Shown: one piece after another, positions 25,406-41,929 of the stretch
Layout of the letters: every line of letters begins with the position of its first letter
How positions within the stretch are numbered: position 1 is the stretch's first letter
Source: Natronospirales bacterium
GTDB lineage: Bacteria; Pseudomonadota; Gammaproteobacteria; Natronospirales; REEB76
Length of the DNA: 64,000 nucleotides
Direction of reading: 5' to 3'
Assembly: GCA_021792635.1 (NCBI GenBank)
Contig: JAJYUH010000012.1
Span: 1 to 64,000 of the forward strand
Notes under the pieces: model-generated
What the model was told of the DNA's origin: nothing
The model's database searches: none
What the model saw: the letters and a program-made list of their open reading frames with translations, nothing else
Position numbers and translations under genes: made by a program

Positions 25406-27403
25406 ATGAACCTGAGCCCTGCGGTCCGCCGCTGCCTGACCGGAGCGGCGATGCTGCTGCCGTTTGTGGCGGCATTCGCCGCGTACTACCCCGGCCTGCA
25501 CGGCGGCTTTCTGTTCGACGACTACGCCAGCATCGTCAATAATCAGGCGCTCACCCTGCCGTCGCTGGCCTGGCATAACCTGGCGGCAGCGGCCCTGTCC
25601 GCCCCGACGGGCCCTCTGGACCGTCCGCTGAGCGTGCTGAGCTTCGCCCTGGACCGGTATTTCTTCGGCCCGGGCCCGTTGAGCTTCAAGCTCACCAACC
25701 TGCTGATCCACCTCGCGACGGGCGCGGTATTGTTGCTGCTCACCCGCGAGCTGCTGCTGGCCTGGCGGCGCATTCGCCCGCAGGTGCCCGCGCAGGATGT
25801 GTTGTTTGCCGCGCTCGCGGTCACCGCCGCCTGGCTGCTGCATCCGCTCAACCTCACAGCGGTGCTGTACGTGGTGCAGCGCGAAGCCAGTCTCGCGGCA
25901 CTGTTCACCGCCCTCGGCGTGCTCTGCTACACGCTCGGCCGCAACCGCGAGCTCGACGGAAAACGCGGCTGGCCGCTGATCTGGATCGCCGCGCCGCTCG
26001 CGGGACTGGTGGGCCTGTTCTGCAAGGAGACGGCGGTGCTGTTACCGCTGTTCCTGTTCGCCGTCGAGCTCACGTTGTTCCGCTTTCGCACCGGTGAGGG
26101 ACGAGTCGCCCGTCTGCTGATTGTTTATTTCATCCTCGGGCTCGGCGGCCCGGCGCTCATCGCAGGTTGGTTACTGGTGTTTCACCCGGCGTTTCTGCTC
26201 GGCGGCTACGCCATCCGCCCGTTCACGCTCGGCGAGCGGCTGCTGACCGAAGGCCGGGTCGTAACTCTCTACATTCTCTACACACTCTGGCCGCTGCCTC
26301 ACTGGCTCGGCCTCTATCATGATGATCTCGCGGTCTCGACCGGACTGCTCACGCCCCCCACGACGCTTATCGCATTTCTGTTTCTCGCCGCCCTGCTTGC
26401 CGCGGCCGTGTGGCTGCGCCGGCGCCAGCCGCTCGTCACACTCGGCATCCTGTGGTTCTTTGCGGGACAGGTACTGGAATCGAGCTTCATACCGCTTGAC
26501 TTGATGTATGAGCACCGCGCCTACCTGTCGGATTACGGCCTGCTGCTGGCACTCGCCGCCGGCCTGCTGCTTTGGCATCCGGCGCGGCTGAGATTTTCAC
26601 GCCGCACGCTCGCCATCACGGCCATTGTGGTGCTCGGCTGCCTCACCTGGCTGCGGTCCGTGCAGTGGTCCAATGACCTCAGCCAGGCGCTGTTCGAGGC
26701 GAAATATCATCCCGCGTCGCCGCGCGCCACCTTTGCGCTTGCCTTCGAATATGCGCTCGCCGCCGAACACGGCGACCGCAGCGCCTATCCGCTGGCACTC
26801 GAACATTTTGAACGGGCGGCGAAACTCCAGCCGCAGGCACTCGCCCCCTACGTGGCGATGATCGAACTCGCCTCCGGGCTGCATCAACCCGTGCAGCCCG
26901 CGTGGATGCGGGAGCTGCGGCAGCGGGCCGGGCGCACGCTGATGCCGCCGCTGGATCTGGTTTATCTCGGTTATTGGGTACAGTGCGCCCGCAGTACCTG
27001 CGGGATCCCGGCGGCTGCAACACTGCCGGTTCTCGAACGCGCCCTGGATAATCCCCATGTGCAGAAATCAGGTTGCGCGCGCGGCAACCTGCTGGACCTC
27101 TACGCCGAGGTGCTGGGCGATGCGCGCCAGATCGGCCCCGCATTCCAGGCACTGCAATCCGCAGTGCGCCTGTGCCCGCAGCAGCCGCAACTGCGCATCA
27201 ATCTGATCAACTCTTACCTGAATGCCGGCGCACTGGCCGCGGCGCGGTTTGAGCTGCGGCAACTGGAGGCCCGCAACCGCTTCGGCCAACTGGACAATCC
27301 GATCGCCAAACTGAAGCAGCGGCTGCAAACGATAAAAACTGCTGCGCCCGTTCGCCACGGTAAACCGACGGTGCCGGTTACTCGCCGCGGGAAACCGGCC
27401 TGA
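25406..27403 (+). CDS. GT-C-fold membrane protein with C-terminal TPRs (TMTC/Wzy-like), possible pilin glycosyltransferase
   Basis: The 665-residue protein has about ten to twelve transmembrane helices in the first 430 residues. An early loop holds GGFLFDDYASIVNN, whose acidic pair is where GT-C glycosyltransferases place catalytic Asp. VQREASLAALFTALGVLCY and FCKETAVLLPLFLF match TMTC-type bacterial proteins. The C-terminal 220 residues are TPR-like (ALEHFERAAKLQPQALAPY, AFQALQSAVRLCPQQPQLR). It follows mshQ by 66 bases on the same strand. O-glycosylation of pilins is a reasonable guess from fold and place, not shown. Its 3' end overlaps ntrC by 26 bases tail to tail. Confidence 0.75.
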   Translation: MNLSPAVRRCLTGAAMLLPFVAAFAAYYPGLHGGFLFDDYASIVNNQALTLPSLAWHNLAAAALSAPTGPLDRPLSVLSFALDRYFFGPGPLSFKLTNLLIHLATGAVLLLLTRELLLAWRRIRPQVPAQDVLFAALAVTAAWLLHPLNLTAVLYVVQREASLAALFTALGVLCYTLGRNRELDGKRGWPLIWIAAPLAGLVGLFCKETAVLLPLFLFAVELTLFRFRTGEGRVARLLIVYFILGLGGPALIAGWLLVFHPAFLLGGYAIRPFTLGERLLTEGRVVTLYILYTLWPLPHWLGLYHDDLAVSTGLLTPPTTLIAFLFLAALLAAAVWLRRRQPLVTLGILWFFAGQVLESSFIPLDLMYEHRAYLSDYGLLLALAAGLLLWHPARLRFSRRTLAITAIVVLGCLTWLRSVQWSNDLSQALFEAKYHPASPRATFALAFEYALAAEHGDRSAYPLALEHFERAAKLQPQALAPYVAMIELASGLHQPVQPAWMRELRQRAGRTLMPPLDLVYLGYWVQCARSTCGIPAAATLPVLERALDNPHVQKSGCARGNLLDLYAEVLGDARQIGPAFQALQSAVRLCPQQPQLRINLINSYLNAGALAAARFELRQLEARNRFGQLDNPIAKLKQRLQTIKTAAPVRHGKPTVPVTRRGKPA

Positions 27404-28781
27404 GTTTGCGGGTGAGCGTGTTGCGGCCGATGCCGAGCCGGCGCGAGGCCTCCTGACGGTGTCCGCCGCTGGTTTCCAGCGCCGCTTCAATCAAAATCTT
27501 CTGCAGATCATTCGAAGCCACGGAAAAAATATCCGTTTTTCCGGCCATCAATTGCTGTCGTGTCCAGGCACGCAACACAACCCGCCAGTCGTCACTCATT
27601 TCGCCGGCTGATGTGTTTTTGTGCAGCAACTCCGCAACATCGTTGCGATGCACGATGCGGCCCGGCGCCATGAGTGTCAGCCGGCGGCAGGCATTCCTGA
27701 GCTCGCGCACGTTGCCGGGCCAGGAACGTTCCCGCAGCGCGGCCATGGCATCCGCCGTGAGCCGCTTGGGCTCAAGCGCAAGTTCCCGCGCCGCCGCCGC
27801 CATGCAATGCTCCAGCAACAGCGGAATATCCTCGCGGCGCTCACGCAGCGCCGGCATGCGGATCTGCGCCACGTTCAGACGGTGGAACAGGTCCTCGCGA
27901 AAGCGGCCCTCCTCCACCTGCTTTTCCAGATCCTGGTGCGTGGCGGCGATGATGCGCACATCCACCTTCACCGGCTCATGACCGCCCACGCGGTAGAATT
28001 CGCCTTCCGCCAGCACCCGCAATAGCCGCGTCTGCAAGCCGGCCGGCATATCGCCGATCTCGTCCAGGAACAGTGTGCCGCCATGGGCCTGCTCGAAACG
28101 TCCCACACGGCGCGCATTGGCCCCGGTGAAGGCGCCGCGTTCATGTCCGAACAGTTCGGACTCCAGCAATTCAGCGGGAATGGCGGCGGTATTCAGGGCG
28201 ATGAGGGGGCGCTGGCGGCGCGTACTGTGACGATGCAGGGCACGTGCCACCAGTTCCTTGCCGGTGCCGGATTCCCCGCTGATGAGTACCGTGAGATGCG
28301 TGCCCGCCAGCCGGCCGATGGCGCGAAACACCGTCTGCATGGCGGGCGCCTCGCCGATCAGGGCATCCGCCGCGGCGGTTTCCCCGGACCGGGGGCCGCC
28401 CGGTGGCGACGCTGTCTGCATGGCACGCGTCACCACCGCCGTGAGTTCATCCACGTCAAAGGGTTTGGGCAGATATTCAAAGGCGCCGCTCTGATAGGCC
28501 GCCACCGCGCTTTGCAGGTCGCTGTGGGCGGTAACCACCACCACCGGCACGGACGGATGCGATGCACGCAGTTCGCGCAACAGCTCGAGCCCGTCATCGC
28601 CAGGCAGGCGGATGTCGGTTACCAGCGTGTCCGGCACGGTTTCTTGCAGCGCACCGCGGACTTCTTCCGTGCTGTTGAAATCGCGCACCGTGTGGCCGGC
28701 TTCCCGCAGTGCTTCGCTCATCACCCAGCGCAGTGAGGGATCGTCGTCCACCACCCATACGCTATGTTGCTTGCTGCTCAT
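27378..28781 (-). CDS. ntrC: Nitrogen regulation response regulator NtrC (GlnG)
   Basis: This 467-residue sigma54-dependent activator has an N-terminal receiver domain ([12 protein letters not shown]; phospho-acceptor Asp56 in LVTDIRLPG). The AAA+ domain has Walker A GESGTGKE and the sigma54-contact loop GAFTGA. The C-terminal Fis-type helix-turn-helix ([27 protein letters not shown]) follows. Phosphorylated by NtrB under nitrogen limitation, it would activate glnA, whose sigma54 promoter and NtrC box lie at 41837-41929. The start overlaps the end of ntrB by 20 bases. The 3' end overlaps the convergent GT-C gene. Confidence 0.97.
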
Positions 28782-29856
28782 ATTGATTCCCCATCGGCAG
28801 TAAAATCGAAAACACCGTGTTGCCTGCTGTGCTCGTACACTCGATCAACCCGCCATGGCGGCTGACGAGTTCCTGGGCGATGCTGAGCCCCAATCCCGCA
28901 CCGTGGGGCTTGCTGCTGACCAGCGGTGAAAACAGCCGCGGCAGTGCGTCCGCCGCAATGCCGGGGCCGTTATCCGCGATATCCACACGGGCCACCAGCC
29001 TGTGACGCGTTCCGTTGAGGGTGAATTGGCGCAATACGCGCGTGCGAAAGGTGATGCAACCGTGCTCAGCCACCGCCTCGCGCGCATTCTTGGCGAGATT
29101 GAGCATGGCCTGGATGATCTGGTCGCGATCCAGTTGCAGTTCCGGCAGGCTGGGATCGTAGTCGCGGATGATCTTGAGCGCCGGCGTCAACGGCGTTTCC
29201 GTGAGATGCACCACATGCTCCACCAGTTCGTGAAGATTCACCGTGATTCGGCGTGGCGCCTGCGGTGGCCCGAGCAAGGTGTCCGCGAGTGCGGCGAGAC
29301 GATCCGCCTCCATCATGATGACGCGTGTGTACTCGACGAGTTTCGCATCCTGCAGCCGTCGTGCCAGAAGCTGGGCTGCACCGCGCACCCCGCCCAGCGG
29401 GTTTTTGATTTCATGGGCGAGGTTGCGGGCCAGAATGCGGTTGGCGTCACTCTGGGCGGTGAGTGCCTGTTCGCGGCTGATGCGCAGGTGACGATCCAAC
29501 GGCACCAGCTCCACCAGGAGCCCCAGCACTCCCTGTCTTTCCACCACCGGTGTAACCGTGCAATCCGCCGTCACCGTCTGCGGGGTCTCCGGCCTGCCCA
29601 GCATCAGTTCCAGCTCTCGCCGCGTCACGGTTTCCCGGGTGGCCATGGCACGTTGTAAAATCGAAGCGAATGCGTCGTCTTGCGCAAAAAAGTCCGTCAC
29701 AGCTTTGCCTATGGTGCTCTGCCCATCCAGATTCAGCAGGGTTTCAGCAGCAGGGTTCAGGTAGCGCAGATGCAGTGTTCCGTCCAGCCAGAGAAGACCC
29801 GTGGTCTGGTTTTCCAGCAGAAGGTCGGAAAGGATGAGTTCGGCAGTATCCGACAT
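28762..29856 (-). CDS. ntrB: Nitrogen regulation sensor kinase NtrB (GlnL)
   Basis: This 364-residue cytosolic histidine kinase has an N-terminal PAS domain (about 10-110, LLENQTTGLLWLDGTLHLRY), the H-box LAHEIKNPLGGVRGAAQLL with the phosphorylated His, an N-box LNLAKNAREAV and a G-box DNGPGIAADALP. It has no membrane segment, as expected for NtrB, which is controlled by PII. The start ATG 29856 was chosen by family length; the frame remains open to 30138 but that stretch lies under the DUF4124 gene and NtrC boxes. No clear ribosome-binding site precedes it. Confidence 0.96.
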   Translation of the reverse strand: MSDTAELILSDLLLENQTTGLLWLDGTLHLRYLNPAAETLLNLDGQSTIGKAVTDFFAQDDAFASILQRAMATRETVTRRELELMLGRPETPQTVTADCTVTPVVERQGVLGLLVELVPLDRHLRISREQALTAQSDANRILARNLAHEIKNPLGGVRGAAQLLARRLQDAKLVEYTRVIMMEADRLAALADTLLGPPQAPRRITVNLHELVEHVVHLTETPLTPALKIIRDYDPSLPELQLDRDQIIQAMLNLAKNAREAVAEHGCITFRTRVLRQFTLNGTRHRLVARVDIADNGPGIAADALPRLFSPLVSSKPHGAGLGLSIAQELVSRHGGLIECTSTAGNTVFSILLPMGNQYEQQAT

Positions 29857-29857
29857 T

Positions 29858-29874
29858 TGCACTATTGTAGTGCA
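29858..29874 (-). promoter_or_regulatory. NtrC-type box 1 at the ntrB start
   Basis: TGCACTATTGTAGTGCA is a perfect inverted repeat (TGCAC, seven bases, GTGCA), matching the enteric NtrC operator pattern. It ends one base before the ntrB start codon. In this position bound NtrC would be expected to block transcription or translation entry, that is autoregulation; this is inferred. Confidence 0.7.
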
Positions 29875-29876
29875 AA

Positions 29877-29893
29877 TGCACTTTAATGGTGCG
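29877..29893 (-). promoter_or_regulatory. NtrC-type box 2 at the ntrB start
   Basis: TGCACTTTAATGGTGCG matches the same TGCAC-N7-GTGCA pattern except for its last base. Its centre is 19 bases from that of box 1, so the two could bind adjacent dimers. It overlaps the last codons of the DUF4124 gene. Confidence 0.65.
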
Positions 29894-30422
29894 ATTTGGG
29901 GCCTATAATTGTCTTCTGATGAACATAGAAGGTGACCGGACCGGCAGACAGGCCGGCACCGTTGGCGGCATTGAGTGTGGCGGAGACGGTATGCGTGCCG
30001 CGATAAACATGTTTGAAGGTCGCGGACGTATTGGTAGTGGGCCCGATGGTCTGACCGTCCAGATGGTAGGTAATGGTATCTCCGGACTGCAGTGACGGAG
30101 ACACGCTGACTGACACCGTAACCTGATGCACATACCACAGATTCGCCTGACTGGCGGGTGAGGTAATGGAGAACCGGGTATACGCTGCCGTGGGCACGGC
30201 GGCGGAAGCCTGGGAGGGTGCAGCAGGCATATCAGCCGCCGTCAAGGAGGGGGGGGCATAGGTCTGGGTCCGGGGCAGCTGCACCTTCTGGGAGCCCGGG
30301 TGCGGATGATCGGAATAGTGCACATTGCCCTGGGCATCCACCCATCTGTAAATGCCGTCCGCCTGGGCCATGCCTGCGCCCAAGAAAAAAGCCAAAAGAA
30401 TAATGGAGACCATTCGATACAT
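29883..30422 (-). CDS. DUF4124 domain periplasmic protein upstream of ntrB
   Basis: This 179-residue exported protein has a signal peptide (MYRMVSIILLAFFLGAGMAQA), then the DUF4124 motif DGIYRWVDAQGNVHYSDHPH, a Pro/Ala linker and a C-terminal Ig-like beta domain (FSITSPASQANLWYVHQVTV to FYVHQK). The function is unknown. Such genes often sit beside ntrBC in gammaproteobacteria. It ends 26 bases before ntrB, so they may share a message. Start choice between ATG 30422, ATG 30413 and an upstream frame to 30458 is uncertain; the signal peptide favours 30422 or 30413. Confidence 0.85.
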   Translation of the reverse strand: MYRMVSIILLAFFLGAGMAQADGIYRWVDAQGNVHYSDHPHPGSQKVQLPRTQTYAPPSLTAADMPAAPSQASAAVPTAAYTRFSITSPASQANLWYVHQVTVSVSVSPSLQSGDTITYHLDGQTIGPTTNTSATFKHVYRGTHTVSATLNAANGAGLSAGPVTFYVHQKTIIGPKSHH

Positions 30423-30719
30423 GAGCTGAAGCCTAGCCAGAATACCGGGGGCAGGCAAGTGTTCTTAGTGCAGCCAAAAGTGCATGGCCCGCGGAACTGT
30501 TGACGTTTCTCTGACTGTAGGTCATTAAACCTTATTAAGGGACCCTGTCAGGGACAAGCGCCGCTGCAACCGAGGGTTCGGCAATTCAGCCTGACTCCCA
30601 GTCAGCGAGTGTTTCATTTTTGAAGGCGGGGCGGGAAAGGTTAACCGCATGTTTGTGGAAGCTTCTGTTAAGAGCGGTTTTTACAGGCAACTCCTCCGTG
30701 GCCGCAACGGTCCGCTGCA
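30423..30719. other. Non-coding gap with several dyads
   Basis: No gene was recognised here. The gap holds the palindrome CCTTATTAAGG (30530-30540), a CCCTGTCAGGG dyad (30543-30553), a CCGA/TCGG hairpin near 30571-30582 and a CTGACT-CCC-AGTCAG hairpin (30591-30605) followed by a T-rich run on the + strand. TTGACG at 30500-30505 with CATTAA 17 bases on could be a weak + strand promoter. The whole could be the DUF4124-ntrBC promoter region, a small RNA, or both. Confidence 0.4.
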
Positions 30720-31700
30720 TCAAACGCCGATTTGGGGCCGCAATAGAATCTTCCCGGCACTTTGACGCGAGGCCAGCCGGGTCTGGGCGGCAGCGGCTTC
30801 GGCCAAGGGAAGCTCGCTGTCAATGCGCAATTTCAGGCTCCCATCCGCCGCCCAGCCGAAGATGTCGCCGGCGCGCCACTGCAGTTCGTCACGCGAGCGG
30901 GTGTAGTGCGCCAGAGTGGGACGGGTCACGAACAGACTGCCTTTGCGGTTCAGTACCTGCAGATCGAAGGGCGGCACAGGTCCCGAGGATTGGCCGAAGA
31001 GCACCAGATAGCCGCGCGGGGCGAGGCAGTCCAGGCTCTTGTCGAAGGTACTGCGCCCCACCGAGTCATACACCACCGCCACGCCTGCACCGGCCGTAAG
31101 GCGGTGCACTTCGGCGACGAAATCCTGCCGTTCATAGAAAATCACCTCATCGGCACCCGCCGCATGCGCCAGCGCGGCTTTCTCTTCGCTGGAAACCGTG
31201 GCGAGGATGCGTGCGCCCAGGCGCCTGGCCACCTGCACCAGCAGCAGCCCCACACCGCCGGCCGCCGCATGCACCAGACAGATCTCGCCGCGTTTGAGCG
31301 GGTAACTGCTGTGCGTAAGGTAGTGGGCGGTCATGCCCTGGAGCATGAGCGCCGCCCCGGCACGCACGTCCAGCCCCGCCGGGAGCTTCACCAGTTGCCG
31401 GGCGGGCACACACGCCATTTCGGCGTAAGCGCCCAGTGCCCCGCACCAGGCTACCCGGTCACCCACCATGAAATCGCTGACCCCTGCGCCGAGCGCCTCC
31501 ACCGTGCCGGCGCCCTCGTTACCGGGCACAAACGGCAGGGGCATGGGATACAGCCCCTGGCGCTGATAGATATCTATGAAATTGACACCGGCGGCTCCGA
31601 CCTTCACCCGCACCTCGCCAGCGCCGGGTTCGGGCCGCGGGCGCTCGGCGGGCCGGAGCACCTCCGGCCCGCCGGTCTTCTCCACCAGGATCAGGCGCAT
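30720..31700 (-). CDS. qor: NADPH:quinone oxidoreductase, zinc-free MDR family
   Basis: The 326-residue cytosolic protein belongs to the medium-chain reductase family. It has GroES-like N-terminal part ([19 protein letters not shown]) and a nucleotide-binding motif ([20 protein letters not shown]). There are no zinc ligands, as in quinone oxidoreductase type 1. It would reduce quinones or enones with NADPH. It follows lctP by 7 bases and so is probably cotranscribed with the permease and malate synthase. Its real substrate cannot be judged from sequence. Confidence 0.9.
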
Positions 31701-31707
31701 GAAGCGC

Positions 31708-33315
31708 TCAGAGCATCATCGCCCCGGGCGCGAGGAAGTAGTAGAACAGCCCCACGATGATCAACCAGCCGAGGATCACCAGCGCCCAGCCGAAATTGTA
31801 ACGGATCACCGTACCCTCCTTGCGTACGTAGCTGGTAGTGGACACCCCCACACTCGCGGTCTGCGGCGCGATCGGCTTGCCCACCTCGGCGCCCACCGAG
31901 TTCAGGCTTGGCAGCAGCAGGAGGGGAAAATTGAGCAGTTTTCCGGCCATGAGCTGGATGGTGCCGAACATGGCGTTAGTGGAGGTATTGCTGCCCGACA
32001 GCGCCACGCCGATCAATCCCACCACCGGAGCCAGCAGGATGTACCACGGCCCGATGCGCGACAGGCTGTAGGCAAGCGACCCCGCCATGCCCGAGTAGTT
32101 GTACACGAAGGCCAGACCGAAAATGAAAAAGCCCACTAACAACGCACCCCACATCTGGTGGAAGGTGCGTTTGAACACCTCGGTGTACTGCGCGGGTTTG
32201 AGGCCCACCACGAAGGTGATCAGTATCCAGGAAATCAGAATCCAGGTGCCGCCTGCGAACGGCGTGAACAGAAATGCCGAGCTCATGGTCTTGCCGGTCA
32301 CCGCCGAAACTGCATCCACGTGCGCCGCGAACAGCTTGAGCGCAGGCAGATGCGACCAGGGACCGGTGCCGGCCACCACCACCACGATCAGAATGATGAA
32401 CGGCAGCCAGATCTTAAGCAGCTCGCCGCCCGTGACCTTGTGATCGCCATGCGCGCTCACCTGTGCCGCGCTGAGGGGGGCGCCACCGTAGCCGAGTATG
32501 CTCGCCGGCCGCCACACGCGCGTGAACAGCAGAATAACGATGAAAGCCACGATGGCACCGGCCACGTCGGGAAGATAGGGGCCTACGAATACCGCCACCG
32601 GCAACTGCCCGGCAATGTAACCGAGGGAGGCGACGATCGCGAGCGGCCAGCCATCACGCAGTCCGCGCTTGCCGGCCACGAGATAGATGAGTATCCAAGG
32701 CGGCAGAAATGCCAGCAACGCCACCACCTTGCCGACCGAGGCGCTGAGGGCCAGCAGCGGCAGACCGGTGACCGCCGCAAGCGCGATGATCGGCGTGCCG
32801 AGAGCACCATAGGAAACCGGCGCGTTGTTGGCGATGGCGGACACACGCAGCGAATCCAGCTCCGGAATACCGAGCGCGATCAGGATCGGTGCCACGAACG
32901 CCCATGGATAGCCGAAACCCACCAGCCCCTCAAGCAGGGCGCCGAACGCCCAGGCAAACAGCAGCGTCTGGATGCGCACATCGGCGGTGCCCACGCTCAC
33001 CAGCCAGGTACGGAAACGCTCGAACATGCCGGTGAGGACCAGTGTGTTGAAGATCATCACGCCCCAGAAGGTAATCCAGTCAATCGCCCAGGCCCCGGTC
33101 AGGGCTCCGTACAGGTAGGAACGGATACCCTCGGAAAAGGGCATGTGCCACGCCCAGAGCGCGATTACGAAAGTGACGATGGAGCCGATGATCGCCGCGA
33201 TCCATGCGGAACGGCGCAGCACCGGCAGGAGCAGCAGCAGCACCGCGAGCGGAATCACGGCGACGACGAAGGTAAGCCAAAGCGGACCGACGGGACTCAG
33301 GACTTGCGTGAACAT
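31708..33315 (-). CDS. lctP: LctP-family L-lactate/glycolate permease
   Basis: The 535-residue polytopic inner-membrane protein has about 13 helices and the LctP signatures [33 protein letters not shown] and [15 protein letters not shown]. These carriers take up lactate or glycolate with protons (LldP/GlcA group). The start ATG 33315 is set by GGAGGGGG just upstream on the minus strand; an upstream extension to 33411 lacks coding character. With malate synthase upstream and glcDEF nearby, glycolate is the likelier cargo (inference). Confidence 0.93.
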
Positions 33316-33437
33316 GTTACCCCCTCCCATGTGACAACCCCGGCGGCTTGTACTACTCCCCGGGTATCCCGCCGTCAAGACTCCCCCCGGCCGGCCTGAC
33401 TCGCAGGCCATACCACTCGCCGGAAAATACCAATGGA

Positions 33438-35048
33438 CTAGGAGAGACGAGTGTAGGCCGGCAGCGTCAGAAACTCGGTGAACTCCCCGTCGAGCGCCAG
33501 CGAGCGCAGGATGTCGGCGGCTTGCCCTGCCTGTTCCGAGACCTCCGGCTCGACGGCAAAACGCGCGCGGAATGCCGCAAGTTCCTCGCCGAGGATGCGC
33601 TCAATGAGTGCCGCGTCCACGCGGCGGCCATCATCGAGCCGCGCACCGTGGGTGCGCCATTGCCAGAGTTGAGCGCGGGAAATCTCGGCGGTGGCCGCAT
33701 CCTCCATCAGGTGGTCAATCGGTACACAGCCGTTGCCGCCGAGCCAAACTGAAAGGTAATGCAGCGCTACGCGCACATTGGTGCGCAGCCCGTACTCGGT
33801 AATCCGCCCCTGCGGCACTTGCAGCAGGTCGCGCGCACCCAAGGCGAATCCTTCACCGAGCTTGGCAAGCTGGTTCGGCCCCGGCATGAGCCGGTCGAAA
33901 ACCTCGCGCGCCAGCGGCACCAGCCCCGGGTGTGCCACCCAGGTGCCGTCATGGCCGTCGCCGGCTTCGCGCTCCTTGTCGGCGCGCACCTTGGCGAGTG
34001 CTTCCTCGTTGGCTATGGCATCGTTTTTGATGGGAATCTGCGCCGCCATCCCGCCCATGGCGAACGCTCCGCGCCGGTGGCAGGTAGCAATAAGCAGGCG
34101 CGAATAGCTTCTCAGGAAGTGCGTAGTCATGCTCACCTGGGCACGATCGGGCAGCACCGCCCTGGGATCGCGGCGGAATTTCTTGATGAAGCTGAAAATG
34201 TAATCCCAGCGCCCGCAATTGAGCCCGAGAATATGCTCGCGCAGGGCATAGAGGATCTCATCCATCTCGAATGCCGCTGGCAGGGTCTCGATAAGCACCG
34301 TGGCACGGATTGTGCCGCGTGCAAGGCCGAGTCTGTCCTCGGCATGGACAAATACATCGCGCCACCATTCGGCTTCGTGGTGGCTTTCGAGTTTCGGCAG
34401 GTAAAAATAGGGCCGCGAGCCGCGTGCCAGCAGCTCACGGGCATTGTGAAACACATACAGCCCGAAATCGAGCAATGCCCCGGCCACCGGTCGCTCGCCG
34501 GCAAGCGCGTGCTTCTCGAGGAGGTGCAGCCCGCGCGGGCGCACCATGAGTACTGCGATCTCAGGATTAAGACGGTAATTCCTGCCCTCGGGACTGTGAA
34601 AAGCGATCGTGCGCCGCACTGTGTCGTACAGGTTTGCCTGGCCGGCGGCGACGTTTCTCCAGGTAGGAGCGAGAGAATCCTCGAAATCCGACATGAAAAC
34701 CCGCGCCCCCGAGTTGAGGGCGTTGATGATCATTTTGCGGTCCACGGGCCCGGTGATCTCGACCCGCCGGTCGGCCGTTTCTTCGGGGATGGGTGCAACT
34801 TTCCAGTCAGCCGCGCGCAGCGCGCGCGTTTCCGCGGGAAACTCCGGTTTTTCTCCGCCATCAAACCGCTGCTGACGCTCCGCACGTGCGGTCAGCAGCG
34901 CTGCACGCCGCGGCTCAAAGCGGGCGTCAAGTTCGGCGATAAAGGCCAGGGCTTCAGGAGTGAATATGCCGCGCTCGGCGGCCTCAAGCGCGCCGGTCAG
35001 ACGGATGGGGATCGGCTCGTCTGCGGGACGGGTGGAGGATATGGCCAT
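33438..35048 (-). CDS. aceB: Malate synthase A
   Basis: This 536-residue cytosolic enzyme condenses glyoxylate with acetyl-CoA to malate. The length and motifs are of type A, not the 720-residue type G: MSDFEDSLAPTW, IRATVLIETLPAAFEM, LNCGRWDYIFSFIKK and GGMAAQIPIKND. GAGGAGGT before ATG 35048 sets the start. No isocitrate lyase is nearby; the partner genes are glcDEF, so it probably consumes glyoxylate made from glycolate. It is divergent from the TSUP-glcDEF cluster across 117 bases. Confidence 0.96.
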   Translation of the reverse strand: MAISSTRPADEPIPIRLTGALEAAERGIFTPEALAFIAELDARFEPRRAALLTARAERQQRFDGGEKPEFPAETRALRAADWKVAPIPEETADRRVEITGPVDRKMIINALNSGARVFMSDFEDSLAPTWRNVAAGQANLYDTVRRTIAFHSPEGRNYRLNPEIAVLMVRPRGLHLLEKHALAGERPVAGALLDFGLYVFHNARELLARGSRPYFYLPKLESHHEAEWWRDVFVHAEDRLGLARGTIRATVLIETLPAAFEMDEILYALREHILGLNCGRWDYIFSFIKKFRRDPRAVLPDRAQVSMTTHFLRSYSRLLIATCHRRGAFAMGGMAAQIPIKNDAIANEEALAKVRADKEREAGDGHDGTWVAHPGLVPLAREVFDRLMPGPNQLAKLGEGFALGARDLLQVPQGRITEYGLRTNVRVALHYLSVWLGGNGCVPIDHLMEDAATAEISRAQLWQWRTHGARLDDGRRVDAALIERILGEELAAFRARFAVEPEVSEQAGQAADILRSLALDGEFTEFLTLPAYTRLS

Positions 35049-35165
35049 GGGTGGGACCTCCTCGCGCGCAAGCGCGTCGGAATACAGGGCACGGTGACCG
35101 CGCTCCTCGGCACAGTGGTATAAGTATAAGCCCATGGCGCCGGCGGTTTTTCAAGGAAACAAAAC

Positions 35166-35930
35166 GTGCCTCCCGTTTCATTTCCCGTGCTCACGCTGCT
35201 GTTCGTCCTGGGCGCCCTCGCCGCGGTGCTCAATGTGTTTGCCGGCGGTGGCTCGATGCTCACCCTGCCGGCCCTCATATTCGTTGGTCTTGACCCGACG
35301 GTTGCCAACGGCACCAACCGCGTGTCTATCGCTTTGCAGAACCTCGCCGCCACCGGCGGCTTCAGCCGCTGGCACGGCGCAGAACTCGGCGAAAGTTTCA
35401 AGCTTGCGCTGCTCACCCTGCCGGGTGCGATCCTGGGCGCCTGGTTAGGTGCACGCATCAGCGACACACTTTTCCGGTACGTGCTCATCGGAGTGCTGGT
35501 ACTGAGCACGATGACACTGTTTCTGCCCGCGCGCCGCCTCGGCGCCGGCGCCCCCTCCGCGCAGCGGCGCTGGCTAATCTATCCCGCGATGCTCGCGACT
35601 GGCCTGTACGGGGGCTTTATTCAGGTAGGCGTTGGTTTCCTGTTCATGGCGGCGCTGCGCGGCATCCTGAAACTCGATTTGGTACGCGTAAACGTATACA
35701 AGGTGTTCATCGTATTCCTGTACACGCTGCCGGCGCTCGCGATATTTATCGCCCTGGACAAGGTGGCCTGGGGCGATGGCCTTGCACTCGGCGCAGGCGG
35801 CATGGTGGGTGCGTTGCTTGCCACCCGCTTGCACCTGCGCGGCGGTGAGCGCTGGGTGAAGGTGGTACTGGCAATCGCCATCCTGCTGATGTCGGCGAAA
35901 CTCCTCTGGCCCGGTCTTGGGGGCGGCTGA
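35166..35930 (+). CDS. TSUP-family (TauE/SafE) membrane transporter
   Basis: The start is GTG 35166 after AAGGAAAC. The 254-residue protein has about eight transmembrane helices and the TSUP motif AGGGSMLTLPALIFVGLDPTVANGTNR in its first half, with GLYGGFIQVGVGFLFMAALRG repeating the pattern in the second half. TSUP proteins move sulfite, sulfonates or small organic acids, including 2-hydroxyacids. It is nine bases before glcD, so an organic acid linked to glycolate is possible. The cargo is unknown. Confidence 0.9.
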   Translation: MPPVSFPVLTLLFVLGALAAVLNVFAGGGSMLTLPALIFVGLDPTVANGTNRVSIALQNLAATGGFSRWHGAELGESFKLALLTLPGAILGAWLGARISDTLFRYVLIGVLVLSTMTLFLPARRLGAGAPSAQRRWLIYPAMLATGLYGGFIQVGVGFLFMAALRGILKLDLVRVNVYKVFIVFLYTLPALAIFIALDKVAWGDGLALGAGGMVGALLATRLHLRGGERWVKVVLAIAILLMSAKLLWPGLGGG

Positions 35931-35939
35931 GGCGGCTCC

Positions 35940-37400
35940 ATGAGCGACGCCCGCACCACCCTGCTTGCCGAGCTGCGCGCCGCGCTGCCCGGGGACGCGT
36001 TGCTCACCTGCGAGGAAGAATTGCGTCCCTACGAATGTGACGGCCTTACCGCCTACCGCGCGCTGCCGTTGGCGGTGGTGCTGCCGCACACGGTCGGGGA
36101 GGTTGTCAGCGTGCTGCGGCTGTGTCGCACGCATGGCGTGCCGGTGGTGGCGCGCGGCGCGGGCACCGGGCTTTCAGGCGGCGCACTGCCGCACGCCGGG
36201 GGCATGGTACTGTCGCTGGCGCGTTTCAACCGCATTCTCGAAATCAATCCGCTGGCGCGCAGCGCGCGCGTCGAGCCCGGTGTGCGCAATCTCGCCATCA
36301 GCGAGGCAGCGCGCCCCTACGGGCTGTACTACGCCCCGGACCCCTCCTCGCAGATCGCCTGCACCATCGGCGGCAATGTGGCGGAAAATTCGGGCGGCGT
36401 GCACTGCCTCAAATACGGCCTGACAGTGCACAACGTGCTCGCCCTGGAGGCGCTCACCATCGAAGGTGAGCGCCTGTCGCTCGGCGGGCACGCAGCGGAC
36501 GCTCCGGGCTACGATCTGCTGGCGTTGCTCACCGGCTCCGAGGGGCTGTTGGCGGTGGTGGTGGAGGCGACGCTGCGTCTGCTACCACTGCCACAATGCG
36601 CGCGCGTGCTGCTCGCTGCCTTCGACTCGGTGGCGACGGCGGGCAACGCCGTGGGCGCGATCATTGCCGCCGGCGTGATCCCCGCCGGACTCGAGATGAT
36701 GGATCGGCTCGCGGTAGAGGCAGCGGAAGACTTCGTGCATGCCGGTTACCCGCGCGACGCCGAAGCTATCCTGTTGTGCGAGCTGGACGGCGATGAAAAG
36801 GAGGTCGCGGTCGCGCTGGCGCGTGTCGAGGAGATTCTCAAGCGCGCCGGCGCAAGCGGGTTGCGCGTGGCCCGCGATGAGGCCGAACGGCAGCTTTTCT
36901 GGAAGGGACGCAAGGCCGCATTCCCGGCGGTCGGACGCCTCTCACCCGATTACTACTGCATTGACGGTACCATTCCGCGCTCCAAACTTGCCGAGGTACT
37001 GACCCGCATCGCGGAACTTTCCCGCGAGCACGGCCTGCGGGTCGCCAACGTGTTTCATGCGGGCGATGGCAACCTGCATCCGCTCATTCTCTACGACGCC
37101 AACACGCCGGACGAACTGGTACGCGCTGAGGCGCTCGGCGCCGCCATCATGGAACTGTGCATCGCGGCCGGCGGCACCATCACCGGTGAACACGGCGTCG
37201 GTATCGAGAAAATCAATCAGATGTGCGTGCAGTTCACGCCCGCGGAACTTGAGCAGTTCCATGCCGTCAAGCGCGCCTTCGATCCCGCCGGACTGCTCAA
37301 TCCCGGCAAGGCGGTGCCAACATTGGCGCGCTGCGCCGAATACGGCCGCATGCACGTGCACCGGGGCGAATTGCGCTTTCCGGATCTCGAGCGCTACTGA
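35940..37400 (+). CDS. glcD: Glycolate oxidase FAD subunit GlcD
   Basis: The 486-residue flavoprotein has the FAD-binding PCMH fold: [40 protein letters not shown] and the later GEHGVGIEK with the C-terminal FAD-oxidase domain ending in [11 protein letters not shown]. It oxidises glycolate (and D-lactate) to glyoxylate as part of the membrane-associated GlcDEF complex. It lies nine bases after the TSUP gene and three before glcE. Confidence 0.95.
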
Positions 37401-37403
37401 GCA

Positions 37404-38477
37404 ATGGACCAAGACGACCACAGCGAAACGATTGCGGCACGGGTGCGTGAGGCGGCCGCGGCGCACACGCCGTTGATGCTTGCCGGCGGCGGCAGCAAGC
37501 ACTTCCTCGGCCGCCGCGTTGCGGGCACCCCTCTTGCCGTGGGCGGGCACTGCGGCGTCCTGCATTACGTCCCCGAGGAACTGGTGTTGAGCGCCCGCGC
37601 CGGCACGCCGCTCGCCGAAATCGAGACGGCGCTCGCCGAACGCGGACAGATGCTCGCCTTTGAGCCGCCCTACTTCGGCGCGACAGCGACCCTCGGTGGC
37701 ACTATTGCCGCCAACCTCAGCGGCCCGCGCCGTGCCTACGCGGGCGCGGCCCGGGACTTCGTCCTGGGCTGCCGCCTGGTCAACGGCAAGGGTGAGATCC
37801 TGCACTTCGGCGGCGAGGTCATGAAAAACGTCGCGGGCTACGACCTCTCGCGCCTCATGGCCGGTGCCTTCGGCACGCTGGGTGTGCTGCTCGAGGTCTC
37901 TCTCAAGGTGCTGCCCCGGCCCGAGGCGGAAACCACGCTGGTCTGCGAGCAGGATGAGACCTCTGCCATTGAGCTCATGAACCGCTGGGCGGGCCGGCCG
38001 TTGCCGCTCTCGGCCACAGCCTGGAGCGAGGGCCGGCTCTATGTACGCCTCTCGGGTCCCGCACCGGTAATTGCCACAGCAGCGGCCGGACTCGGCGGTG
38101 AGCGCCTGCCGCAGGCGGAGAAGTTCTGGTCCGATCTGCGCGAACACACGAGCGCATTTTTCACCGATCCACGCCCCTTGTGGCGCCTGGGGTTGCCCGT
38201 CACCGCCCCGCCGCTGGCCCTGGACGGACCTGAAATCGTTACCTGGGGCGGGGCGCAGCGCTGGGTGAAAACCGGGATTCCCGCGGACCAAGTGCGCGCA
38301 CACGCCGCCGCTGTTGGAGGTCATGCGACCCTGTTCCGACCTGCCCGGGACGCGCCCCCTGCCGAGGACCCCTTCACACCACTCACGCCTGCGCTGCATC
38401 ACCTGCACCAGCGGCTGAAAGCCGCCTTCGATCCGGCCGGTATTCTCAACCCCGGGCGTCTATACGCGGGACTCTAG
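37404..38477 (+). CDS. glcE: Glycolate oxidase subunit GlcE
   Basis: The 357-residue second FAD-binding subunit of the GlcDEF complex is shorter than GlcD and shares its PCMH domain: LAGGGSKHFLGR, TPLAEIETALAERGQ, GATATLGGTIAANLSGPRR and GEVMKNVAGYDLSRLMAGAFG. The C-terminus ends FDPAGILNPGRLY. It starts three bases after glcD and ends nine before glcF, consistent with one operon. Confidence 0.94.
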   Translation: MDQDDHSETIAARVREAAAAHTPLMLAGGGSKHFLGRRVAGTPLAVGGHCGVLHYVPEELVLSARAGTPLAEIETALAERGQMLAFEPPYFGATATLGGTIAANLSGPRRAYAGAARDFVLGCRLVNGKGEILHFGGEVMKNVAGYDLSRLMAGAFGTLGVLLEVSLKVLPRPEAETTLVCEQDETSAIELMNRWAGRPLPLSATAWSEGRLYVRLSGPAPVIATAAAGLGGERLPQAEKFWSDLREHTSAFFTDPRPLWRLGLPVTAPPLALDGPEIVTWGGAQRWVKTGIPADQVRAHAAAVGGHATLFRPARDAPPAEDPFTPLTPALHHLHQRLKAAFDPAGILNPGRLYAGL

Positions 38478-38486
38478 AACGACGTC

Positions 38487-39701
38487 ATGGAAGCCCACCT
38501 CGCCGATTTTATCCGGGATACGCCCGAGGGCCGCGAGGCGGAGGCGATCCTGCGCGCTTGCGTGCACTGCGGTTTCTGCACCGCCACTTGTCCCACCTAC
38601 CAGCTTCTGGGCGATGAGCTGGATGGTCCGCGCGGGCGCATTTATCTCATCAAACGGGTACTCGAGGGCGAAACCCCCAGCGCTATCACCGCACAACATC
38701 TCGACCGCTGCCCCACCTGCCGCGCCTGTGAAACCACCTGTCCCTCGGGAGTACGCTACGCGCGGCTCGCCGATATCGGCCGCGCGGTGGTGGCACGGCA
38801 GGTACCTCGTCCCTGGCGCGCGCGGCTCCGAGGCGCCGGCATCCGCTGGCTGTTCACCCACCCCTGGCGGCTGCGTCTCATGCTCGCGCTGCTACGCCCC
38901 CTGCGCCCGCTGCTACCGGCGCAGTTCGCTGAAAAACTGCCGGTGCGCCAACACCTGCTGCTGCAACCGGCGGTACACCACCCGCGACAGGTGCTGCTAC
39001 TGGAGGGCTGCGTACAAGCGATCGCCACGCCCGCGACCAACGCTTCGTTAACGCGCGTACTGGACCGTCTGGGTTGCGGTACGGAATTCATTGCGGGCTG
39101 TTGCGGCGCATTAGCCTGGCACAGCGGTGCACAGGAAGAGGGTCAAAAGCGCATGCGTCGCCTCATCACGCGGGTGGAAGGCGGGTTGCGGGCCGGTGCC
39201 GAGGCGTTCGTGGTGAGCGCCTCGGGCTGCGCCGCCATGATCGGCGAGTATCCGGACATCTTCCGCCACCAGCCGGTCTGGGCGGAACGCGCGCAACGCA
39301 TGGCTGCGGCACTGCGGGATCCCTCGGAGCTGATTGCACCGGCGATCGAACACTGGGACGGGGTTGGTAAGGCTAAGCGCATTGCCTTTCACGCGCCCTG
39401 CACGCTGCAACATGCCCTGCACCGTGCCGCCGCGGTGGAGACGATCCTCACACGTGCCGGTTATGTGCTCACGCCGGTGCCCGAGGCGCATCTGTGCTGC
39501 GGCTCCGCCGGAAGCTATTCGCTCACCCAGCCGGAAATTGCCGCAGCATTGCGGACGCGCAAGCTCGCCGCGCTCGCCAGCGGTGGTCCCACAGTCATCG
39601 CCACCGCCAACGTCGGTTGCGAACTGCACCTGGCCGCCCGCGCTTCTGTGCCCGTGTGTCACTGGCTGGAGCTTCTCGAGCCGGCCAATTCCTTGCCATG
39701 A
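38487..39701 (+). CDS. glcF: Glycolate oxidase iron-sulfur subunit GlcF
   Basis: This 404-residue protein has two 4Fe-4S motifs at its N-terminus, CVHCGFCTATCPTY and CPTCRACETTCPSG. Two CCG-type domains follow (CCGALAWHSG and CCGSAGSYSL). It passes electrons from GlcDE to the quinone pool. It completes glcDEF; no glcG or glcC regulator is present in the window. It converges on the GNAT gene with 15 bases between. Confidence 0.95.
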   Translation: MEAHLADFIRDTPEGREAEAILRACVHCGFCTATCPTYQLLGDELDGPRGRIYLIKRVLEGETPSAITAQHLDRCPTCRACETTCPSGVRYARLADIGRAVVARQVPRPWRARLRGAGIRWLFTHPWRLRLMLALLRPLRPLLPAQFAEKLPVRQHLLLQPAVHHPRQVLLLEGCVQAIATPATNASLTRVLDRLGCGTEFIAGCCGALAWHSGAQEEGQKRMRRLITRVEGGLRAGAEAFVVSASGCAAMIGEYPDIFRHQPVWAERAQRMAAALRDPSELIAPAIEHWDGVGKAKRIAFHAPCTLQHALHRAAAVETILTRAGYVLTPVPEAHLCCGSAGSYSLTQPEIAAALRTRKLAALASGGPTVIATANVGCELHLAARASVPVCHWLELLEPANSLP

Positions 39702-39716
39702 GCACCTGCTGCCCTG

Positions 39717-40298
39717 TCATGCAGCGACCCACGGGCTGCATTGTCCCGACAGTGGACACTGAAGTGCAACAAGCGAAACGGGAGGTTGTGGCGGAACCGG
39801 GCGCATACCCAGCGATTTTTGCCACCAACTCACATCGTACCATGCGCCGAGCTTGTATCCGGCGCCACGGAACACACCTACGGACTCGAAGCCGACAGCG
39901 GCATGCAAGCGTTCGCTGGCGGGGTTGGGCAGACTGATACCCGCATAGGCGGTGACATAACCTTGCCGGCGCAGTAGTTCCATCAGCTGAATGTACAAGG
40001 TACGGCCGATACCTTGGTGGCGGGATTCCGCACGCACATATACCGAGGTCTCCACCGACCAGAGATAGGCGGGCCGCTCGCGGTGGGCGGTAGCGTATGC
40101 GTATCCCTGCACGCGGTCATGCTGTACACACACCAGCCAGGGATAGTGCGGCAGGGTTTTGCTGACGCGCGCAGCCATGGTTGCCGCGTCCGGCGGCTCT
40201 ATCTCAAAGGAGATGGCGCTCCCCAGTACCGCGGGCCGGTAAATGTCTGCCAGTTCCGGCGCATCGGCAGAGGTGGCAAAGCGCAGAGTAGTGGGCAT
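39717..40298 (-). CDS. GNAT N-acetyltransferase, phosphinothricin/PAT-like
   Basis: The 193-residue cytosolic protein is a GNAT enzyme. Its motif A region is VRAESRHQGIGRTLYIQLM (acetyl-CoA pyrophosphate loop) and the C-terminal segment SERLHAAVGFESVGVFRGAGYKLG is the PAT-like pattern. Such enzymes acetylate amino-acid-like compounds (methionine sulfoximine, phosphinothricin), inhibitors of glutamine synthetase. It lies directly downstream of glnA, which is suggestive. A TTG start at 40319 is an alternative to ATG 40298. Confidence 0.85.
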   Translation of the reverse strand: MPTTLRFATSADAPELADIYRPAVLGSAISFEIEPPDAATMAARVSKTLPHYPWLVCVQHDRVQGYAYATAHRERPAYLWSVETSVYVRAESRHQGIGRTLYIQLMELLRRQGYVTAYAGISLPNPASERLHAAVGFESVGVFRGAGYKLGAWYDVSWWQKSLGMRPVPPQPPVSLVALQCPLSGQCSPWVAA

Positions 40299-40375
40299 GC
40301 TGCGTTGTACGTTGGGCAAGTCCCCATTCCGCGGCTGAGCCGGGGGCGGGGCATAGGTGTATTACTGACCTGCGG

Positions 40376-41794
40376 TCAGAGGCTGTAATACAGATCGAAC
40401 TCCACCGGGTGGGTGGTCATGCGCAGGCGCGTGACCTCCTGCATCTTGAGCTTGATGTAGGCGTCAATTACATCGTCGGTAAACACGCCGCCGGCTTTGA
40501 GGAAAGCACGGTCTTTGTCCAGATGTTCCAGGGCCATGTCGAGCGCATAGCAAACCTGCGGAATATTTTTCTCCTCTTCCGGCGGCAGGTCGTAAAGGTC
40601 CTTGTCCATGGCCTCCCCCGGATGGATCTTGTTCAAGATGCCGTCGAGACCGGCGAGCATCATGGCGCTGAAGGCGAAATAGGGGTTGGCGGTGGCATCG
40701 GGGAAACGCACTTCGATGCGGCGTTTCTGCGGGCTCGACACATACGGGATGCGGATGGATGCCGAGCGGTTGCGTGCCGAATAGGCGAGCATCACCGGTG
40801 CCTCAAATCCCGGCACCAGACGCTTGTAACTGTTGGTACTGGCGTTGGTGAGCGCGTTAAGCGCCTTGGCGTGCCTGATGATGCCGCCGATGTAATGCAG
40901 CGCCAGCTCCGAGAGACCTCCGTAGAGATTGCCACTGAACAGGTTTTTGCCGTTCTTCGCCAGGGACTGGTGCACATGCATGCCGCTGCCGTTGTCCCCC
41001 ACCAGCGGCTTCGGCATGAAGGTGGCTGTCTTGCCGTAAGCATGGGCCACATTCATCACCACATATTTCAGAACCTGCACTTCGTCCGCCTTCTGCAGCA
41101 GGTGACCGAAAGCGACGCCGATCTCACATTGGCCGGCGGTGGCCACCTCGTGATGGTGTACCTCGGTCTTGAGTCCCATGTCCTCCATCGCCAGACACAT
41201 GGCGGAGCGGATGTCCTGCAGTGCGTCCACCGGCGGCACCGGGAAATACCCGCCTTTGATGCCCGGGCGGTGACCGATATTGCCGCCTTCATATACCCGC
41301 TCGGAATTCCAGCCGGCCTCCTGGGAATCAATCTTGCAGAACGAACCGCTGATGTCAGCACCCCAACGCACGTCATCAAAAATGAAAAATTCGTTCTCGG
41401 GACCGAAGTAAGCGGTATCGGCGATGCCGGTGGACTTGAGATACGCCTCGGCGCGTTTGGCCAGCGACCGGGGATCACGCTCATAGCCCTGCATGGTGGT
41501 GGGTTCGATGACATCGCAGCGCAGGATTACACTGGCTTCCTCGAAGAACGGGTCAATGACGGCGCTGGCGGGATCCGGCATGAGGATCATGTCGGACTCA
41601 TTGATGCCTTTCCAGCCGGCGATGGAAGAGCCATCGAACATTTTGCCGTCCTCAAACAACTCCTCATCCACCGTGTGAGAGGGCACGCTGACATGCTGCT
41701 CCTTGCCACGGGTATCGGTGAAGCGGAAGTCTACAAACTTCACGCTTTCCTTGCTGATCAGGTCCAATACATCTTTGGCGATCTTGGTGGTCAT
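40376..41794 (-). CDS. glnA: Glutamine synthetase type I (GlnA)
   Basis: The 472-residue enzyme makes glutamine from glutamate, ammonia and ATP as a dodecamer. Signatures are FDGSSIAGW, the metal and ATP sites ([25 protein letters not shown]) and the adenylylation loop LYDLPPEE with Tyr at about 401, so it should be subject to GlnE control. CGGAG before ATG 41794 sets the start. A sigma54 promoter (41837-41852) and NtrC box (41913-41929) lie upstream. A weak CTGACC/GGTCAG hairpin overlaps its stop codon (40365-40379). Confidence 0.98.
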
Positions 41795-41836: not shown

Positions 41837-41852
41837 TGCAAGTGGTATGCCA
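41837..41852 (-). promoter_or_regulatory. Sigma54 (-24/-12) promoter of glnA
   Basis: On the minus strand the site reads TGGCATACCACTTGCA. GG and GC are exactly 10 bases apart, as in the sigma54 consensus TGGCAC-N5-TTGCA. Transcription would start near 41826, leaving a leader of about 32 bases before the glnA ATG. It is supported by the NtrC box upstream. Confidence 0.85.
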
Positions 41853-41912
41853 ATGTTGAACCCCTGCTATCCGGGGCTGTCACAGGAACAGGATGCTTGA
41901 ACATAGTGCGTA

Positions 41913-41929
41913 TGCACCATCACGGTGCA
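41913..41929 (-). promoter_or_regulatory. NtrC-type enhancer box of glnA
   Basis: TGCACCATCACGGTGCA is a TGCAC-N7-GTGCA dyad centred about 95 bases upstream of the predicted glnA start, in the usual enhancer range. A weaker half-match with TGCACATACTGGTG lies further up (about 41957-41970, minus strand) and could be a second degenerate site. glyQ diverges just beyond. Confidence 0.8.

Follow-up and report, generated by a model that had tools for sequence, protein, structure and literature searches.

A candidate promoter within a conserved putative NtrC operator that abuts the ntrB start codon in Natronospirales

Overall, we believe that the ntrB start region of this Natronospirales bacterium probably holds a weak sigma-70 promoter within an NtrC operator, one that would give rise to a leaderless ntrBC mRNA and would be repressed by NtrC. 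The window, by which we mean the whole stretch of DNA that was analysed (64,000 nucleotides, positions 1 to 64,000 of contig JAJYUH010000012.1), contains the features listed in Table 1. A box, a -10-like hexamer, their spacing, their conservation and the absence of a Shine-Dalgarno (SD) sequence are all directly visible in the letters. The NtrBC circuit is textbook material from the enteric bacteria, whose ntrB is preceded by both a leader and an SD. Feedback by NtrC on ntrBC is already known, and the anatomy described here is a variant.

Table 1. Features of the ntrBC and glnA regions, by position in the window
Feature	Position	Strand	Remarks
Proximal NtrC box, predicted	29858..29874	(-)	10/10 arm bases; TGCACTATTGTAGTGCA; ntrB strand TGCAC-TACAAT-AGTGCA
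Distal NtrC box, predicted	29877..29893	(-)	9/10 arm bases; TGCACTTTAATGGTGCG; 19 bp from proximal box
Candidate sigma-70 -10 element TACAAT, within proximal box	29864..29869	(-)	Candidate promoter; TANNNT phase kept in 15/17
Region of the predicted transcription start, for a leader of 0-2 nt	29856..29858	(-)	Placed by -10 spacing
ntrB start codon ATG, without SD	29854..29856	(-)	
ntrB, histidine kinase (PAS, HisKA, HATPase_c)	28762..29856	(-)	
ntrC, sigma-54 activator (GAFTGA, HTH_8)	27378..28781	(-)	Overlaps the end of ntrB
DUF4124 gene upstream of ntrB	29883..30422	(-)	PF13511, E 1.6e-12
glnA	40376..41794	(-)	10.5 kb upstream of ntrB; adjacent to ntrB in most relatives
glnA sigma-54 promoter	41837..41852	(-)	TGGCATACCACTTGCA; begins at -58
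glnA NtrC enhancer box	41913..41929	(-)	TGCACCGTGATGGTGCA; 10/10; begins at -135
Weak second glnA box	41894..41910	(-)	CGCACTATGTTCAAGCA; 7/10; 19 bp from enhancer box

NtrC recognizes the dyad TGCAC-N7-GTGCA. The original prediction placed two such boxes at the start of ntrB, 19 bp apart from centre to centre, with the proximal one a single nucleotide off the ATG, and both are found exactly there, in the ntrB-strand order CGCACCATTAAAGTGCA-tt-TGCACTACAATAGTGCA-a-ATG. Both satisfy the dyad (10/10 and 9/10 arm bases), which also occurs at the glnA genes of the order and at E. coli glnL, and the distal box encloses the stop codon (TAA, 29885-29883) of the upstream DUF4124 gene.

Our sample of the order comprised 19 genomes, 17 of them with ntrB, and in all 17 the proximal box abuts the ntrB start codon, with an arm score of at least 9/10 in 16 loci and 7/10 in the other (G012). 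The distal box, on the other hand, is intact at 19 bp in only four of the 17 (G000, G008, G011 and G016), and we reject it as a conserved partner. The expectation that the boxes would be conserved in relatives holds for the proximal box and in only a minority of genomes for the distal one, and of the proposed two-box unit only the proximal half is general in the order. The exact tandem GCAC-N7-GTGC-N4-GCAC-N7-GTGC has four matches in the 19 genomes, each at an ntrB start; when one or two mismatches are allowed, the matches become many and lie mostly away from that start. Judged by sequence, two things raise the evidence above chance, namely the exact tandem and a perfect proximal box whose place does not vary among relatives, and an NtrC operator at ntrB is very likely. 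In several same-genus relatives without the distal box (loci L006-L009 and L011), a dyad of the GCCCC...GGGGC type spans the DUF4124 stop codon at the equivalent place (29877-29893), GCCCCGTTAAGGGGC in G009 being one example; relative to the GCAC...GTGC of the window, both arms have changed together.

The candidate promoter lies in the centre of the proximal box, where the TACAAT of the window, which reads TATAAT in relatives, ends 7 nt before the ntrB ATG. In 15 of the 17 order loci, a TANNNT hexamer ends 5 nt (three loci), 6 nt (two) or 7 nt (ten) before the start codon, while G013 and G017 retain the box at the ATG and lack the hexamer. At the same phase, TANNNT is present in none of 16 glnA enhancer boxes from the same order genomes (one box hand-picked per promoter, L135 dropped), a difference with a Fisher p of 1.5e-7 that is not corrected for phylogeny. 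Likewise, 16 of 18 boxes that touch the start codon contain TANNNT, against 14 of 38 distant enhancer boxes of sigma-54-type ntrB genes (p 4e-4); because those 14 share it, the hexamer proves little alone, and as a stand-alone argument it is weak. The inner dyad of NtrC seems by itself to be near a -10, with selection at ntrB having completed the hexamer. No conventional -35/-10 pair was found upstream of ntrB or of the DUF4124 gene, a generic promoter scan returned nothing at ntrB, and in 16 of the 17 order loci the -35 region has at most 2/6 matches to TTGACA; with no -35 visible, the promoter should therefore be weak. A wider pattern, in which a box with TANNAT is followed by ATG within 5 nt, occurs in 27 of 369 class genomes versus one of 369 for a reversed-pattern control, though many of the matches in those 27 genomes are found at glnA or a long way upstream of ntrB. 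On these grounds, a promoter embedded in the NtrC operator appears likely.

The absence of a clear ribosome-binding site at the ntrB ATG, also part of the original prediction, is borne out: the best six-mer between -16 and -5 matches AGGAGG at only three of six positions, and the place of an SD is taken up by the proximal box. Few ntrB loci show an SD whatever their type, the same rule detecting one in just 19 of 115 other loci, which makes its absence weak as a stand-alone argument. A -10 that ends 5-8 nt before the start codon, with no SD, is the sequence pattern of leaderless genes, and a -10-like hexamer so placed is found in the window (7 nt) and in 15 of the 17 order loci (5-7 nt). Since transcription would start some 6-8 nt after the -10, the 5' end of the mRNA would fall within 0-2 nt of the AUG, and this leaderless-promoter spacing would account for the missing ribosome-binding site. 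Starts were assigned by rule as the ATG nearest to the alignment-expected start, and in G011, G012 and G014 the reading frame meets a stop 9-12 nt ahead of that start, which makes the codon at the box the first possible one. In G046 (L026), an SD-like stretch precedes an ATG that is located inside the box. From these features we can reasonably infer leaderless translation of ntrB and, with it, a gating of read-through.

The general scheme can be outlined as follows. On the ntrB strand, TGCAC-TACAAT-AGTGCA-A-ATG, the centre of the NtrC dyad would serve as the -10 element, and the transcript would begin at the ATG or 0-2 nt before it, producing a leaderless ntrB-ntrC mRNA. Once abundant, NtrC (probably NtrC~P) would occupy the proximal box, aided in the window by the second box 19 bp off, and would mask the -10 and exclude RNA polymerase, resulting in negative autoregulation. 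Read-through mRNA from glnA and the DUF4124 gene would give poor translation of ntrB because the ATG has no SD, and the supply of NtrB would depend mainly on transcripts initiated at the ntrB start. NtrC binding, promoter activity, the start site, the direction of regulation and the mode of translation are the parts of this scheme that we infer. Direct feedback by NtrC on ntrBC, as originally predicted, is well supported by the conservation of the box, by the precedent of E. coli glnLp and by the NtrC of the window, which is 58% identical to that of E. coli through the C-terminal helix-turn-helix. The further suggestion that ntrBC is uncoupled from the DUF4124 gene is plausible, given a proximal box that would have its own -10 and that persists in G013, where there is no room for DUF4124.

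The position of glnA bears on how much such a promoter might matter. Fifteen order genomes have glnA and ntrB on one contig; the two genes are 0.2-1.6 kb apart on the same strand in 13 of these, and the 10.5 kb gap is confined to the window species and its nearest relative, G008, in which the local ntrB promoter should matter most. The distal box is best formed in these same two genomes, and the tandem is also present in two others, G011, which has glnA close by, and G016, which has glnA and ntrB on separate contigs. Within the intervening region of the window (29857-40375) lie, among others, quinone oxidoreductase, lactate permease-like and malate synthase-like genes, the last two named by eye. 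In G013, by comparison, glnA is just 220 bp from ntrB, and a DUF4124 gene cannot fit between them. The 19-bp tandem recurs in partial form at two glnA genes, that of the window (7/10) and that of G008 (9/10), and other glnA promoters of the order have box pairs 20 or 22 bp apart. We also considered the PII genes of the order as support for a wider NtrC regulon and rejected them: a box scoring at least 9/10 is present in two of 26 loci (L166-L191), and no sigma-54 site was found near the PII gene in any of the 26. The pattern of sites suggests a very small NtrC regulon in the order, namely glnA and ntrBC.

A rival model might dispense with the promoter altogether. In such a model, the operator is a roadblock or governor on read-through from glnA and the DUF4124 gene, and ribosomes that terminate at the DUF4124 stop reinitiate to translate ntrB. 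The closeness of glnA in 13 of 15 genomes, the lack of a -35 at ntrB and the -10 likeness already inherent in the inner dyad of NtrC would all be compatible with it. We nonetheless regard a pure roadblock as unlikely: the TANNNT phase is kept in 15 of the 17 ntrB boxes and in none of the 16 glnA boxes, glnA is 10.5 kb off in the window genome and in G008, the DUF4124 stop lies 26 nt ahead of an ATG that has no SD, and the box of G013 sits at the ATG with no DUF4124 gene to reinitiate from. It is also improbable that ntrB has a leadered start, with the ATG at the box unused and another codon, further down or 6 nt upstream, in its place. The window does have an in-frame GTG 6 nt upstream, in a frame open for 378 nt, but this codon likewise lacks an SD, the frame is closed 9-12 nt upstream in G011, G012 and G014, and a protein begun at the ATG of the box needs no more than about 13 residues to enter the conserved PAS region.

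More remote still is a model wherein the boxes act as enhancers and, as elsewhere in the Gammaproteobacteria, bring about positive feedback on ntrBC by way of sigma-54. Such an arrangement is common in the class: under a strict rule, 38 of 133 loci have ntrB sigma-54 sites with boxes more than 60 nt upstream, and it is there, rather than on the start, that an enhancer would be positioned. We searched for a sigma-54 promoter at the ntrB gene of the window and found none; all 17 order loci are without a GG-N10-GC site near ntrB, and the sole good site of this kind by a gene start in the window is that of glnA. These observations make the enhancer model very improbable. Finally, single boxes with one mismatch occur in the window at chance frequency (24, compared with a mean of 20.8 in shuffles, which is not significant), as they would if the ntrB boxes were compositional dyads without function. 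Given conservation in every ntrB-bearing genome of the order and an exact tandem found solely at ntrB, this last explanation can scarcely be credited. A weak, NtrC-repressed promoter within the operator is the reading that we retain.

Short leaders at ntrB may extend well beyond the order. Sigma-54 promoters have GG at -24 and GC at -12. Our class set contained 135 loci and was enriched for the order of the window; two had no start, leaving 133, and partial or weak places (G124, G144, G160 and G171) were left out. Outside the order, a good sigma-54 site precedes ntrB in 76 class loci, and in 46 of these the TGG of that site stands 26-28 nt ahead of the ATG (at -27 in 24 loci, -28 in 19 and -26 in three), which would place +1 at the AUG or 0-2 nt before it. 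A pyrimidine (C or T) directly precedes the ATG in 45 of these 46 loci, and SD-like letters are seen in eight. By the same rule, none of 38 glnA sites falls at -26 to -28, all being at -56 or further, and an SD is present in 37 of 41 glnA loci. Under a mechanical choice of start, the peak holds 41 of 75 loci with the most upstream ATG and 33 of 75 with the most downstream. A second, named set, rich in Pseudomonas, comprised 79 of 80 loci (L055 had too little upstream sequence), of which 78 had a start and 61 a sigma-54 score of at least 13; 11 of these 61 good sites lie at -27 or -28, among them those of Hydrocarboniphaga, Solimonas, Thiogranum, a Methylococcus and an Ectothiorhodospiraceae MAG, and the ntrB genes of Pseudomonas have long leaders. 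A leaderless or near-leaderless ntrB seems, on this evidence, to be widespread and not universal.

We therefore offer, tentatively and as a possibility that we would not yet call probable, a broader proposal: that ntrB is leaderless across much of the Gammaproteobacteria, and that this state is kept while the promoter switches between sigma-54 (positive feedback) and a -10 embedded in an NtrC box (negative feedback), each starting on the AUG. Synthesis of NtrB would thereby be tied to local transcripts and largely blind to read-through from glnA, with the kinase gated separately from ntrC. On a tree built from 58 NtrB proteins, the type in which the box touches the start codon requires three changes, compared with 17.8 in shuffles, and clusters chiefly in the order of the window and in families f121 and f158, with G026 separate. 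A single origin is rejected, since at least two of the three changes are forced by well supported branches; the deep branches are poorly supported. A third layout is seen in L018, L216, L239, L255, L261, L264, L279 and L288, where an NtrC box ends 13-17 nt before the ntrB start and is often followed by AT-rich letters such as AATAAT, possibly a -10 placed just past the box, in which case the leader would be very short. In L139, L141, L205 and L208, distant NtrC boxes upstream of ntrB read TGCACTATAATGGTGCA-like; by analogy with E. coli glnAp1, such boxes may double as repressed sigma-70 promoters.

If ntrB is indeed often leaderless outside the enterics, translation of the kinase would follow a route of its own, and transcripts reading through from glnA would contribute more to NtrC than to NtrB, shifting the kinase-to-regulator ratio in starvation. 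The case also illustrates how an operator with a -10-like inner dyad could be turned into a self-repressing promoter by small changes. Our search of the open-access literature found no report of a leaderless ntrB. Both ntrB and ntrC are placed in the core NtrC regulon of Proteobacteria in the accessible portion of one study (PMC5343134), and negative control of E. coli glnLp by NtrC is described in the accessible portions of two others (PMC3870243; PMC9731577).

A close counterpart would be glnLp, which serves ntrB within glnALG: it is a sigma-70 promoter repressed by NtrC, and its NtrC box (TGCACTAAAATGGTGCA) is nearly identical in sequence. Its anatomy differs, however. The E. coli glnL region reads TATAAT, then the box, then a leader with CAGGAG, so that the -10 lies just 5' of the box and the ATG, served by that SD, follows 21 nt past it, whereas in the window the -10 would lie within the box, the box abuts the ATG and there is no SD. 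The sigma-54 ntrB promoters of other Gammaproteobacteria resemble the present case in their upstream NtrC boxes and, in the 46 of 76 loci described above, in an implied leader of 0-2 nt; unlike it, they would be activated from a distance through sigma-54 with no occlusion of a -10, and their Pseudomonas versions have long leaders with an SD-like sequence. The '-10 adjacent to ORF' promoters of Deinococcus-Thermus offer a parallel for the start itself: in D. radiodurans, the TANNNT of leaderless genes is located some 6-7 bp ahead of the ORF (PMC12340547), and the present case would share with such promoters a TANNNT 5-7 nt before the start, no need for a -35 and no ribosome-binding site. There, leaderless transcription is genome-wide, whereas here it would concern one gene, whose -10 would sit within the operator for the regulator that the operon itself encodes.
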